A model generated the notes under the pieces. That model ran no database searches. It saw only the letters and a program-made list of their open reading frames with translations, and had not been told where the DNA came from. From an uncultured Psychroserpens sp. (GTDB lineage Bacteria > Bacteroidota > Bacteroidia > Flavobacteriales > Flavobacteriaceae), in assembly GCA_947488655.1 (NCBI GenBank), contig CANKZZ010000002.1, forward strand, positions 620,001 through 684,000: a stretch of 64,000 nucleotides of DNA. Direction: 5' to 3'. Both the position numbers and the translations under genes were made by a program. This document shows positions 44,020 to 62,820 of this stretch, piece by piece; position 1 is the first letter of the stretch, and each line of letters starts with the position of its first letter.

Positions 44020-44871
44020 TTACCAGCTTCCACCAGCACCACCTCCAGAGAATCCGCCTCCACCGAAGCCACCTCCAAAACCGCCACCTCCAAAGCTTCC
44101 GCCAGAACTACCGCCTCCAAAAATGCCACCACTTGATCTGCTTCCACCATAGCTTCCACGTCCCATATTGCTTAAAATAATAGCATCTAAAATACTAGTG
44201 CCATTAGTTCGTTGTCCACCACTACCGTTATTTCCTCCACCTCTTCGGTTTTTTGAAATAGCAATAATAAATATGATGAATATTATAAATAATACTATAA
44301 AAAATAAGATTGGAAATTCACCTCCAGAGTTTGACTGCCTCGTCCCTTGATAAGTACCATTTAATCTTTCAAATATTGCATCAGATCCTTTATTGAGTCC
44401 TTCATAATAGTCTCCTCTCTTAAATTGTGGTATAATGATGTTTCTCGTTATTTCTCCAACAATACCAGCAGTTAATTTATCTTCAACGCCATAACCAGGA
44501 GAAATCCAGATTTTACGATCTTCACTAGCCAAAAGTATAAAAACACCATTATCTTCTTTAGCTTGGCCAATTCCCCATTCTTGAGCCCATTTAGGAGCTA
44601 ATAGTCCGATATTTTCACCTTTAGATGTTGCAATTATAGCTACAACAATTTGAGTTGATGTGGTGTCAGAATATCTAACGAGCTTTTGTTCTAGATTGTT
44701 TTTTTGTGTAGATGATAATAATCCAACATAATCATAAACGCTTGTTTGTTCTTTAGGTATTGGCGGAATGTCAAATTGAGCAGAAACAGTTTGCACAGCA
44801 AACAAAAAGAGAACACACAATGAGATTGTTTTCTTAAATAAGTTCCATGTACTGTAAACTAAATACTGCAT
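44020..44871 (-). CDS. TPM-domain (YgcG-like) protein with glycine-rich C-terminus
   Basis: A 283-aa membrane protein: signal peptide (to about 32, V-S-A-Q), a TPM domain (about 42-170, with V-Y-D-Y-V-G-L-L-S, G-V-F-I-L-L-A-S-E-D-R-K-I-W-I-S and G-Y-G-V-E), one transmembrane helix (about 185-208) and a cytoplasmic tail ending in about 45 residues of Gly-Ser-Phe repeats and G-G-S-W. The glycine tail is typical of YgcG proteins. Last gene of a minus-strand operon with another TPM gene and lemA; such LemA-TPM sets are widespread but of uncertain role. Confidence 0.88.
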   Translation of the reverse strand: MQYLVYSTWNLFKKTISLCVLFLFAVQTVSAQFDIPPIPKEQTSVYDYVGLLSSTQKNNLEQKLVRYSDTTSTQIVVAIIATSKGENIGLLAPKWAQEWGIGQAKEDNGVFILLASEDRKIWISPGYGVEDKLTAGIVGEITRNIIIPQFKRGDYYEGLNKGSDAIFERLNGTYQGTRQSNSGGEFPILFFIVLFIIFIIFIIAISKNRRGGGNNGSGGQRTNGTSILDAIILSNMGRGSYGGSRSSGGIFGGGSSGGSFGGGGFGGGFGGGGFSGGGAGGSW

Positions 44872-59807: not shown

Positions 59808-59838
59808 TTTGATTAAGTTAAAAATTATATTATTTTTG
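59808..59838 (+). promoter_or_regulatory. Consensus Bacteroidota promoter of the DDGYY lipoprotein gene
   Basis: TTTG (59808-59811), exactly 19 bp, TATTTTTG (59831-59838): a perfect match to TTTG-N19-TAnnTTTG. Predicted start of transcription is near 59845, giving a leader of about 15 bases. Confidence 0.8.
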
Positions 59839-59860: not shown

Positions 59861-60109
59861 ATGAAAAGAAGAGATTTTATAAAGAGATCAGGACAAGCGT
59901 TAGTAATAACATCTGTAGCTAGTATTGTAGGCGTATCTGCAGTGTCTTGCTCATCGTCTGATGATGATGCAGCAATGTTTGACGATGGTTATTATGATGA
60001 CGGTTATTATGATGATGGATATTATGACGATGGTTACTACGATGATGGATATTATGATGACGGTTACTACGATGATGGTTACTATGATGACGGATATTAT
60101 GATGATTAG
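59861..60109 (+). CDS. Small Tat-signal lipoprotein with eight Asp-Asp-Gly-Tyr-Tyr repeats
   Basis: An 82-aa protein. The N-terminus M-K-R-R-D-F-I-K-R-S-G is a twin-arginine signal, followed by a hydrophobic stretch and a lipobox-like S-A-V-S-C (Cys30), then S-S-S-D-D-D. The rest (41-82) is eight perfect D-D-G-Y-Y units plus D-D. The repeat peptide is strongly acidic and aromatic with no other residues. Codons differ between units (GAT/GAC, GGT/GGA, TAT/TAC), showing selection on the peptide. It has its own consensus promoter and a strong terminator, so it is a single-gene unit. I do not recognise the family; cation binding or tyrosine cross-linking at the cell surface are only guesses. Confidence 0.85.
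   Translation: MKRRDFIKRSGQALVITSVASIVGVSAVSCSSSDDDAAMFDDGYYDDGYYDDGYYDDGYYDDGYYDDGYYDDGYYDDGYYDD
59981..60100 (+). repeat. Eight 15-bp tandem repeats encoding DDGYY
   Basis: Eight in-frame 15-base units of the type GA(T/C)GA(T/C)GG(T/A)TA(T/C)TA(T/C). All differences are synonymous third-position changes. Because 15 is a multiple of three, slippage would change copy number without a frameshift. Confidence 0.95.
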
Positions 60110-60161
60110 TAGCATTTAAAACTACTAGAAATCAATATAATCTTGTTTTTTAAAAAAATAA

Positions 60162-60209
60162 AAAAGTGTTTTTCAATTATCCATAATGTATAATTTGAAA
60201 AACATTTTT
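60162..60209 (+). terminator. Strong intrinsic terminator after the DDGYY gene
   Basis: About 19-bp stem, AAAAGTGTTTTTCAATTAT (left arm, ending at 60180) with its complement at 60190-60209, one bulged base, 9-base loop, T-rich right end. The A/T-rich symmetry would allow it to act in both directions. Confidence 0.75.
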
Positions 60210-60263
60210 GTTTATAATACTTTTACGCTTCAATAGATTACAAAAACGACCTAAAACATATAA

Positions 60264-61448
60264 ATGAGTTCTTTAAAAAATGACGAAAATTCGTCTATTT
60301 TAGTATATAAAAGTTATGGTGGAATTGGTGATATTTTTTTCACCATCCCTTCATTATATATGTTGAAGCAAAAATTTTCTCAAGTAACTTATGCAACTCA
60401 GCCTAGAATGGTTAATCTTTTTAAGACCCATCTAAAAGGTATAAATGTAATTGACGAAAATCTTGCTAACGAAACTCATTATGATGAAGTTATAGAGTTG
60501 GGTAATTATCCAAGATTTAATAATACTGCCGAAAAAAAGCCTCAAATAAAATACCACACACATAAAAGAGTTAGACAACACTCTATTGAGCATTATAAAG
60601 ATGGTATTGTGTCTGTATTTTCTGAAATTGAAAAAGCCACAACACCTTATCCGTATTTTGAAAAAAGAAACACAAAAGAACGTTATTATACCATACATCC
60701 TGGAGCAGGTTTTATTTTAAAAGCATGGCCAATTAATTATTATGCTAAGCTAATCGAACTTATAAACGACGCATTTCCGCAGTTTAAAGCAAAAATAATT
60801 ATTGGACCAAATGATCCAAATCCTGTACCGCATTTTACAAAAGAGAATTTAAACTTTGAGTTAATCACTGGAGATATAGATGAGGTTGCTCATGAGGTTT
60901 CTGGCGCACAATTTCATGTTGGTAACGATGCAGGAATTACACATTTGGCTGGTGCCTTTAATATACCTATTCTTACAATTTATGGTCCAACAGGACCTGG
61001 ATCTTGGGGAGCTTTTTCAGATAAGGTAGAGCTCATTTGGGGTAAGAAAGGAAATTGCGGTTTAAGATGTAGATATGAAGTTATTATAAATTGTGAAAAT
61101 CGTGTATGCCTGAGTAATGTGAAGCCAGAAAAAATGTTCTTTAAATTACTTAAGTTATTGCATAAAATATATGATACTCCATCAAATTTATATTGGTTAA
61201 ATCCTGATTTTAAAGTTGATATAGAAGATGATTCTTACATCTTTACAAGTAAAGAAAACGAATATTTATTAGAGATAAAAGATTTTGAAAGTCGGAAATT
61301 TTTGGCAAATAACCTGACAGAAAATAGTGTATTTATAGAAGAAATGCCAACTCAATTTAAAGAAACATTTCAAGCTCTAGAGAAGCTTCAGGTATTTACT
61401 GCTTATCCTAATTTAACTTTTAATACTACTAATGAAATCACTGCTTAA
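60264..61448 (+). CDS. Glycosyltransferase family 9 (heptosyltransferase-like)
   Basis: A 394-aa GT-B enzyme. The N-terminal K-S-Y-G-G-I-G-D-I-F-F-T-I-P (17-30) and the C-terminal H-V-G-N-D-A-G-I-T-H-L-A-G-A-F-N-I-P with Y-G-P-T are GT9 signatures of ADP-heptose:LPS heptosyltransferases. A Cys-rich segment (N-C-G-L-R-C-R-Y...N-C-E-N-R-V-C) follows the domain. It probably adds a sugar to lipopolysaccharide or a surface glycan; donor not visible. The next glycosyltransferase gene overlaps its 3' end by 17 bases. Confidence 0.85.
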   Translation: MSSLKNDENSSILVYKSYGGIGDIFFTIPSLYMLKQKFSQVTYATQPRMVNLFKTHLKGINVIDENLANETHYDEVIELGNYPRFNNTAEKKPQIKYHTHKRVRQHSIEHYKDGIVSVFSEIEKATTPYPYFEKRNTKERYYTIHPGAGFILKAWPINYYAKLIELINDAFPQFKAKIIIGPNDPNPVPHFTKENLNFELITGDIDEVAHEVSGAQFHVGNDAGITHLAGAFNIPILTIYGPTGPGSWGAFSDKVELIWGKKGNCGLRCRYEVIINCENRVCLSNVKPEKMFFKLLKLLHKIYDTPSNLYWLNPDFKVDIEDDSYIFTSKENEYLLEIKDFESRKFLANNLTENSVFIEEMPTQFKETFQALEKLQVFTAYPNLTFNTTNEITA

Positions 61449-62820
61449 TCTAGAAAATGTTACCTTGTTAGGAGTTGACTGTGTAGATTTAGATAGATTA
61501 ATCTGTGCAGCAGATATTTCAGAAAAATTTATAAATTTTAAAACTGTAAAACTTTTAACGCACTTTGAGTCTAACGATAATCGTGTGATTAAAATTCCGC
61601 AGATAAAATCAATCGAAGCCTATAGCGAATTTATGATCAAAGAACTCTACAAATATGTAGAGACAGATTTTGTTTTAGTATTTCAATATGATGGTTTTGT
61701 GATTAACCCAAACCGATGGTCTAAAGATTTTTTTAATTATGATTATATAGGAGCGCCTTGTTTTTGGGGAATGGGAAATGGAGGTTTTAGTTTACGGTCC
61801 AAAAAATTACTTCATATTCTAAAAGACGAAAATAGTATAGTAAATTTTCATCCAGAAGATTTCGTTATTTGTGATACATATAAAGCTCAACTAGAAGCAA
61901 AAGGTATTATATATGCGCCCAATGATATTGCTAAAAAATTTAGTGTAGAGAATAATACTTGGAATGGGCAATTTGGTTTTCATAATGCAGACATAGCACT
62001 TTGGGATAGTGACAAATTTACGAGTACACCTAAGTTAGAGCAATTTGTAAATAATCTACATAGTAATAAAGACGAATCTAACCCAATAAAGCTGAGCTAT
62101 GTAGTGCCTATTTATTTAGAAGATAATAAATCTAATCCTTTACAAGAATTAATCGATGTGTACAGTGGTTATAGTAGAGATTTACTTAAACATATACATT
62201 TTGTTTTTGTTGACGACCACTCACCAATACCTGTTAAAATCCCGAAAGACACGATACTTAACTATACCCTTTTAAGAGTTAAAACCGATATCATGTGGAA
62301 TCAAGGAGGTGCGAGAAATTTGGGAGTTAAATATGCGAAATCTGAGCGTTTTATTGCTACAGATTTAGATATTATGTTTCCAGAAAATCTATTAAATAAA
62401 CTGCTAGACTATAGTTTGCCAAACAATTCTATTTTTAAGTTTAATACAATTTCTAACTTAGAGTCTGTAAGACCACACGTAAATGTTTTTTATATGACCA
62501 AAAAGGTATTTATGAAAACGAATGGTGTTGATGAAGAATTCTGCGGAAATTATGGTTATGAAGATATCTTTTTTTATCATCAACAGAGAGCTTTAGGTAC
62601 TAAGTTTTATTTATATCGTTATTCTAATATTGTTCATAAAGAGCATAAAGATTCCGAAGAAATTCAACATAATAATTTAATTAGAGAATCTTCAATTAAC
62701 GATCAACTCATAGCAGATAAATTAGAGATTATTAAAAACTCTACAAATCCGTTAGATGCAAGAAGTTCGCAATATCTTAATTTTGAGTGGGAAATTGTTG
62801 ATGAGCAATTGCACAAATAG
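61432..62820 (+). CDS. Bifunctional-looking glycosyltransferase: DUF5672 domain fused to a GT-A (GT2-like) domain
   Basis: A 462-aa protein of two parts. Residues about 10-200 match the DUF5672 glycosyltransferase-like pattern: V-F-Q-Y-D-G-F-V-I-N-P, Y-D-Y-I-G-A-P-C-F-W, G-N-G-G-F-S-L-R-S and P-E-D. Residues about 218-440 are a GT2-like domain with Y-V-V-P-I-Y, F-V-D-D-H-S-P, N-Q-G-G-A-R-N-L-G, D-L-D-I-M-F-P and a C-terminal G-Y-E-D-I-F-F. Both halves keep their acidic metal or donor motifs. The gene overlaps the GT9 gene by 17 bases, so the two are translationally linked and likely build one glycan. Acceptor unknown. Confidence 0.75.
   Translation: MKSLLNLENVTLLGVDCVDLDRLICAADISEKFINFKTVKLLTHFESNDNRVIKIPQIKSIEAYSEFMIKELYKYVETDFVLVFQYDGFVINPNRWSKDFFNYDYIGAPCFWGMGNGGFSLRSKKLLHILKDENSIVNFHPEDFVICDTYKAQLEAKGIIYAPNDIAKKFSVENNTWNGQFGFHNADIALWDSDKFTSTPKLEQFVNNLHSNKDESNPIKLSYVVPIYLEDNKSNPLQELIDVYSGYSRDLLKHIHFVFVDDHSPIPVKIPKDTILNYTLLRVKTDIMWNQGGARNLGVKYAKSERFIATDLDIMFPENLLNKLLDYSLPNNSIFKFNTISNLESVRPHVNVFYMTKKVFMKTNGVDEEFCGNYGYEDIFFYHQQRALGTKFYLYRYSNIVHKEHKDSEEIQHNNLIRESSINDQLIADKLEIIKNSTNPLDARSSQYLNFEWEIVDEQLHK

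Follow-up and report, generated by a model that had tools for sequence, protein, structure and literature searches.

The small DDGYY-repeat protein encoded in the window, by which the whole analysed stretch of 64,000 nucleotides is meant, is probably the dedicated substrate of the GT9 glycosyltransferase encoded downstream, and it would be glycosylated and exported by Tat; this reading is held at somewhat better than even confidence. The pairing of a small repeat protein with one particular glycosyltransferase in related bacteria suggests that the cell decorates the repeated tyrosines with sugars and exports the product to its surface. An earlier note on this DNA had missed the strictly linked GT9 gene; with this gene considered, the protein reads as a substrate for modification instead of a structural peptide. 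No description of the peptide-GT9 pair was found in the open-access literature searched. The features are listed in Table 1.

Table 1. Features around the DDGYY-peptide gene, in window coordinates.
Feature	Position	Strand	Basis and remarks
Bacteroidota-type promoter TTTG-N19-TATTTTTG	59808-59838	+	pattern match
DDGYY-peptide ORF	59861-60109	+	ORF call; 82 aa, ATG start
Tat signal peptide (MKRRDFIKRSGQ...), ending at predicted lipidation Cys30 (59948-59950)	59861-59950	+	sequence features, 38 relatives
Ser/Asp linker SSSDDDAAMF, resembles lipoprotein export signal	59951-59980	+	sequence; comparison with parts of PMC5080379
DDGYY array, proposed modification sites	59981-60100	+	8 consecutive exact units; family-wide unit statistics
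AT-rich hairpin between peptide and glycosyltransferase genes	about 60162-60209	+	RNA fold
GT9 glycosyltransferase with C-terminal RRE-like domain	60264-61448	+	394 aa; Pfam, Foldseek
C-terminal RRE-like domain, co-occurs with DGYY peptide	61170-61427	+	profile search, predicted fold
Second glycosyltransferase, DUF5672 and GT2, accessory	61432-62820	+	PF18922 E 4.9e-19; PF00535 and PF10111 barely past cut-off

The product of the peptide gene reads MKRRDFIKRSGQALVITSVASIVGVSAVSC-SSSDDDAAMF-(DDGYY)8-DD. As the earlier note had stated, eight exact units make up about half of this Tat lipoprotein (40 of 82 residues). The array is also detected independently by Tandem Repeats Finder (TRF). Seven distinct DNA versions of the unit are present among the eight. 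Five of the 15 sites in the 15-bp unit are variable, and every one is a third codon position with synonymous differences, which confirms the note on this point as well. With 15.6% of random single changes being synonymous, the chance of five out of five is ~1e-4, a rough figure as the units are not independent. The synonymous-only differences, together with relatives in family genomes, support the view that the peptide is real, conserved, and under selection. The further claim that the repeats are not a recent slippage product is fair for the array in the window, but relatives have anything between 3 and 19 units, indicating that units are gained and lost. Another tandem repeat in the window (44039-44121) looks ordinary: it encodes the glycine-rich tail of a predicted membrane protein of 283 aa (ORF 44020-44871, minus strand).

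A protein search over 57 related genomes found the peptide in 13, one of them the window's own. These 13 all belong to the window's genus, and the 23 genomes from the order's other families gave no match. An alignment search of 397 family genomes gave 28 matches, 27 of which have repeats; the other, in G142, is a repeat-free lipoprotein and is considered a chance match. The hosts among the matches listed include Psychroserpens damuponensis, Hanstruepera ponticola, Aureisphaera galaxeae, and Kordia and Mangrovimonas MAGs (at least 11 loci, most of them on contigs that also belong to the genomes searched above). Orthologues, whose absence would have counted against the original proposal, are thus present, and the comparison of repeats and unit number between relatives that it recommended has revealed a family. 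Every confirmed relative belongs to the window's family, Flavobacteriaceae. A candidate from Ignavibacterium (L066) is an unrelated Tat-signal protein without repeats. One labelled as a Clostridia MAG (L058) has no DGYY frame after filtering and was left out of the counts.

The 38 distinct proteins contain 321 units when these are anchored on G. The second D is retained in 310 of them and either Y in 316, while the first position is free to drift (D in 238, G in 47, N in 15, then V, E, and others). Thr, Lys, Arg, and His are absent from the repeat regions of the 38 proteins, and Ser is present in three. In 35 of the 38 members, no hydroxyl residue other than Tyr is present in the repeat region. 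In one protein, found at both L056 and L043, the unit is xDGYY with V, M, N, or E as x, and nine of ten units keep DGYY while position one varies freely. The same protein (L056:6001-6290) has Cys at both ends of its variant array, and a disulfide closing a rod is possible.

No family was found at cut-off by Pfam for four DGYY proteins or by NCBIfam for three, and nothing was found for the window protein. The L043/L056 protein has a sub-threshold N-terminal match (E 0.0022) in NCBIfam to TIGR04117, the Cys-Xaa-Xaa-Xaa repeat radical SAM target protein, which is another repeat protein with a dedicated enzyme. The same relative has a further sub-threshold N-terminal match, to NF045871 (E 0.23). 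An extra C-terminal domain of ~112 aa is present in nine of 39 DGYY proteins (L029, L031, L032, L034, L035, L036, L039, L042, and L049). By eye it resembles a lipocalin; two examples scanned had no Pfam match, and a PDB search with one protein returned nothing at E<=0.05. At L070 (G145:C1:2338032-2338666), tandem DGYY genes precede one glycosyltransferase, one being short and the other having the extra C-terminal domain.

The twin arginine and a later Cys are present in 38 of 38 distinct relatives, and the spacing between them is 27 in 34. One G, one L, two S, and one I of the leader are kept in 32 to 37 of the 38, the h-region has conserved residues, and the leader looks unusually constant for a signal peptide. 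TatC (PF00902, 220.8 bits) is encoded in the window's genome. With the twin arginine, a hydrophobic stretch, the Cys, and a Tat translocase in the genome, the window protein has the predicted features of a Tat lipoprotein. The view that it is undescribed agrees with the literature searched, in which no description of it was found.

A surface-exposed lipoprotein of Bacteroidota is expected to have a polar residue and acidic residues at about +2 to +6 from the Cys. The Cys of the window protein is followed by the acidic residues of CSSSDDD at +5 to +7, and relatives have variations such as CSSDDD. The sequence resembles Bacteroidota lipoprotein export signals, which are SDDDD in Bacteroides fragilis and SDDFE in Flavobacterium johnsoniae according to parts of PMC5080379; the acids start at +5, later than the best Capnocytophaga position in the same source, C-X-K-(D/E)2-X. 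The peptide is possibly displayed on the cell surface, anchored by lipid, as its predicted signals indicate. It had also been argued that the use of Tat points to folding or cofactor binding before export. This is not supported: according to a review, Tat can transport hydrophilic segments of 100-120 aa that are unstructured, although other cargo was stopped by a hydrophobic stretch or, for one antibody fragment, by an unstructured tail (PMC6708511, available sections). The adjacent, presumably cytoplasmic glycosyltransferase offers another reason for the use of Tat, as modification in the cytoplasm would fit export by this route.

The protein encoded downstream of the peptide belongs to GT9 by both Pfam and fold. 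It matches PF01075 with E 4.8e-18 and 65.8 bits against a cut-off of 22, and the top folds for its full-length model in Foldseek are 3TOV, WaaC, heptosyltransferase II, 1PSW, and TibC. GT9 enzymes usually build lipopolysaccharide and are typically heptosyltransferases. The genome of the window has two other GT9 matches.

The two genes form a strict pair. In a neighbourhood comparison, members of a single protein cluster adjoined the peptide at almost all loci. When a profile of the last ~85 residues of the enzyme was used and L010, which is at the end of a contig, was set aside, a gene with this C-terminal domain was the next downstream, on the same strand, for 38 of 38 assessable distinct DGYY genes. 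From the stop codon of the peptide to the first in-frame start there are 3-183 nt in the pairs, and therefore no room for another ordinary gene; the exception is one tandem pair with a second DGYY copy between. The C-domain is fused to GT9 in 37 of 38 loci. The GT9 motif pattern was found in 36; L057 failed, but the gene from the same contig (L015) clusters with GT9, giving 37, and L130 is the stand-alone case.

The genomes with the C-domain are nearly the same as those with the peptide. The C-domain search in the 57 genomes returned the same 13. Among the 397 family genomes it gave 29 matches, 27 of them in common with the 28 peptide matches; these genomes are related and the events are not independent, which inflates such counts. 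The match in G351 is due to chance, as it falls within an ORF of 1074 aa on the opposite strand. In G149, the contig edge is upstream of the enzyme and the peptide gene would be out of view. The G149 enzyme (L127:6530-8053, minus strand) has a different N-terminal part and no Pfam match beyond GT9. In a phylum sample of 395 genomes from 171 genera, the C-domain was found in two genomes, both of the window's family.

The setting of the pair varies. A gene that we take to be rluD is its neighbour in the window and, among others, in Hanstruepera and Mangrovimonas; elsewhere the pair has various other settings, even inside the window's genus (L019, L020, and L024). The pair thus persists although its surroundings change. 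A second locus type in the window's genus (L019, L020, and L024/L025) is in another genomic place, with a different type of leader (SGKAILVTSTISL) and a longer enzyme (686-689 aa); the types of leader and enzyme covary. The long forms of the enzyme, at about 690 aa, are extended at the N-terminus, and in L064, the one scanned, this extension has only a weak, sub-threshold GT1-type match (E 0.022). Relatives of the second glycosyltransferase in Table 1 are present in some loci only. Metallopeptidase-like neighbours, recognized by eye from HE..H, form cluster c15 in six loci (L076, L078, L079, L083, L084, and L086), and cluster c35, also metallopeptidase-like by eye, is in three (L019, L020, and L024). 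They are restricted to some loci and possibly reflect local synteny.

The C-terminal domain of the enzyme can be separated from GT9. In Hanstruepera ponticola (L060:6236-7252, on contig G274:C7), it is encoded alone as an 82-aa ORF beside the peptide, and there is no GT9. The gene order there is rluD, peptide, 82-aa C-domain, GT2, and yaaA, and that in the window is rluD, peptide, GT9 with C-domain, DUF5672-GT2, and yaaA. The full-length enzyme is also encoded in this Hanstruepera genome, at a second locus (G274:C6). This one case suggests that the C-domain is a separable module tied to the peptide, as a substrate adaptor would look.

The predicted structure of the C-domain (pLDDT 82.8) has strands at 7-10, 15-19, 22-26, and 31-35, a helix at 39-48, a strand at 53-55, a helix at 61-72, and a strand at 76-78. 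In a Foldseek search of 350,542 PDB chains, RiPP enzymes and RREs were at ranks 1-6, 9, 10, 12, and 14 (also 19, 21, and 37), although these are raw ranks of whole chains, multi-domain ones included, the best E is 0.02, none is at or below 0.001, and TM is about 0.5. The top RRE-type matches were ThcOx, a cyanobactin heterocyclase, the PbtF RRE bound to its leader, TbiB1, and TruD. ThcOx, TruD, and the cyanobactin heterocyclase contain RREs. Ribosome chains are interleaved with the RRE-type matches and account for most other listed rows. HHalign of the C-domain against 26 PqqD domains (from 30 loci) gave a weak match over 32 columns (Prob 5.6). Its score of 18.1 compares with at most 17.3 for 28 control families, and none of 40 column shuffles was as good. 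A PDB profile search with the C-domain gave nothing relevant and no RRE match, and Pfam gave no PqqD or RRE match for 27 members. The strict RRE order is a bbb-aaa winged helix in the available text of PMC12710340, and the model is b-b-b-b-a-b-a-b. Because it departs from this order and has no significant match, the domain is called RRE-like on the basis of its model, short of assignment as an RRE.

The following pathway is proposed. The RRE-like domain of the enzyme would bind the peptide in the cytoplasm, probably via the conserved Tat signal, which may be at the same time the leader read by this domain. The GT9 catalytic domain would then transfer sugar to the DDGYY repeats in the cytoplasm. 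The acceptor is most likely the tyrosine hydroxyl, since no other hydroxyl is present in most of the repeat regions. Fused or neighbouring GT2, DUF5672, and the weakly GT1-like N-terminal part of the long forms could extend the glycan. The modified protein would be exported by Tat and lipidated at Cys30, and may be displayed at the outer surface as a short acidic glycan-bearing rod or brush. Roles as a surface brush, in adhesion, or in shielding from phages or grazers can be envisaged. That RRE-like leader recognition, glycosylation of consecutive tyrosines, and ready-made Tat export together constitute a new surface glycoprotein pathway producing a lipid-anchored glycan brush is a more tentative proposal, somewhat short of an even chance.

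Other explanations place the sugar, or the function, differently. The repeats need not carry sugar: Ser or Thr is present in all 38 linkers, and the enzyme could glycosylate these residues past the lipidated Cys, leaving DDGYY as an acidic spacer. The general O-glycosylation of Bacteroidetes, in the same phylum, has the motif D(S/T)(A/I/L/V/M/T/S/C/G/F) in the sections available of PMC8698959, and a scan with [AILVMTSCGF] at the third position showed that 18 of the 38 proteins have such a D(S/T)x motif somewhere beyond their Cys. Modification of the linker is nevertheless unlikely. The window protein is without the motif, and a dedicated enzyme is proposed for it here; the linkers differ in both length and sequence, whereas YY hardly changes across the 321 units; and the export signal would in any case call for Ser close to the Cys. 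The tyrosines could alternatively act as a glycogenin-like primer on which a longer polysaccharide (capsule or exopolysaccharide) starts, so that the lipoprotein anchors polymer chains, not short glycans. The nearly invariant Tyr hydroxyl would suit this, as would the presence at many loci of two or more glycosyltransferase domains clustered with the peptide, but no polymerase or capsule exporter was noticed among 12 recurring neighbour clusters read by eye, and it is regarded as rather unlikely.

A structural, metal-binding, or adhesive lipoprotein (Ca, Fe, or dityrosine), merely linked to a lipopolysaccharide GT9 gene, would agree with the acidic-aromatic repeats, with the typical heptosyltransferase function of GT9, and with the two other GT9 matches in the genome, although none of the findings hints at metal binding or dityrosine. 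A bystander gene is held less likely as the pair persists across settings and the C-domain and the peptide have near-equal genome distributions; strict pairing over different neighbourhoods, matching presence and absence, and a stand-alone C-domain would all be unexpected, making this explanation improbable. The Hanstruepera locus without GT9 speaks against a dedicated GT9 substrate. There, with a stand-alone C-domain and GT2, the RRE-like domain could recruit a different chemistry (GT2 alone, or an unlinked enzyme), GT9 adding sugar to something else. It is the sole such case in 38, in a genome that has the full-length enzyme as well, and this explanation seems very improbable.

The reading of the DDGYY protein as a substrate of GT9 can be compared with known systems. 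AIDA-I/AAH and TibA/TibC, whose autotransporter heptosyltransferases have a GT9-like fold, likewise consist of a surface protein with its own glycosyltransferase and multiple sites. The top fold matches of the window enzyme include TibC, which is a heptosyltransferase acting on protein, and both have four conserved Cys near the C-lobe. The substrate in those systems is an autotransporter, in contrast to the small Tat lipoprotein with Tyr repeats here, and the RRE-like domain of the window enzyme is a further difference. The four Cys are invariant in seven aligned enzymes (positions 265, 269, 277, and 282), and residues 261-281 are modelled with low confidence. The spacing of the four Cys is C-x3-C-x7-C-x4-C, compared with Cys 339/342/358/370 in TibC (parts of PMC4358343). 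The argument that four Cys prove an iron finger was dropped, the spacing being unlike that of TibC. Similar Cys groups occur in other GT9 enzymes. With a small Tat lipoprotein as the linked gene and a different Cys spacing, the enzyme is not placed in the BAHT group of TibC and AAH.

RiPP systems with an RRE (cyanobactin, lasso, and thiopeptide enzymes, and PqqD) likewise have a short precursor-like gene beside the enzyme, and the RRE-like domain here also has one stand-alone and many fused versions. Fusions of RRE with a glycosyltransferase (PF00535) are mentioned in the accessible portion of PMC12710340. A RiPP precursor is expected to lie beside its modifying enzyme and to have its leader removed by dedicated cleavage. 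Such adjacency holds for 38 of 38 DGYY genes, and the peptidase-like neighbours noted by eye are present in some loci only. Differently from RiPPs, the product here seems to remain a protein anchored by lipid, a Tat lipoprotein signal takes the place of the leader, and the enzyme is GT9. SpaA of Paenibacillus alvei and other S-layer proteins are also surface proteins with sugars on Tyr; their hosts are Gram-positive, transfer by an oligosaccharyltransferase during export has been proposed, and the available part of the source makes no mention of a Tyr-repeat substrate (PMC2943079).

If the DDGYY protein is a GT9 substrate, glycosylation ahead of export would be the reason why so small a protein uses Tat, and GT9 enzymes would gain a tyrosine-repeat peptide as substrate. 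RRE-type recognition would then be tied to surface proteins rather than secreted natural products. A function would be assigned to a gene pair that recurs in Flavobacteriaceae and whose peptide is without a family model in Pfam and NCBIfam. The two-gene unit is a possible compact protein-glycosylation tag.

The perfect consensus promoter described in the earlier note fits a Bacteroidota form and not the sigma-70 one. The element in Table 1 has the full pattern that we take to be the Bacteroidota consensus, TTTG-N19-TAnnTTTG, but a sigma-70 promoter scan found nothing upstream of the peptide gene, and the pattern is weak alone in this AT-rich window (six found versus a mean of 2.89 expected, with as many in 5 of 100 shuffles). 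Upstream of related genes, the full pattern is present in 3 of 38 versus 0.1 expected. TAnnTTTG is within 45 nt of the start in 11 of 38 genes with enough upstream sequence, compared with 1.4 by shuffling, and it is 30-32 nt before the start in all nine distinct rluD-side genes of the window's genus.

A strong terminator had also been described; "strong" is not established, as the hairpin is not listed by a simple terminator scan. The AT-rich hairpin is a possible attenuator or terminator. The region 60110-60230 folds at -16.9 kcal/mol (z = -2.54), and z is below -2 in the 110 nt past the stop codon at 21 of 37 related loci, with 30 simple shuffles for each.
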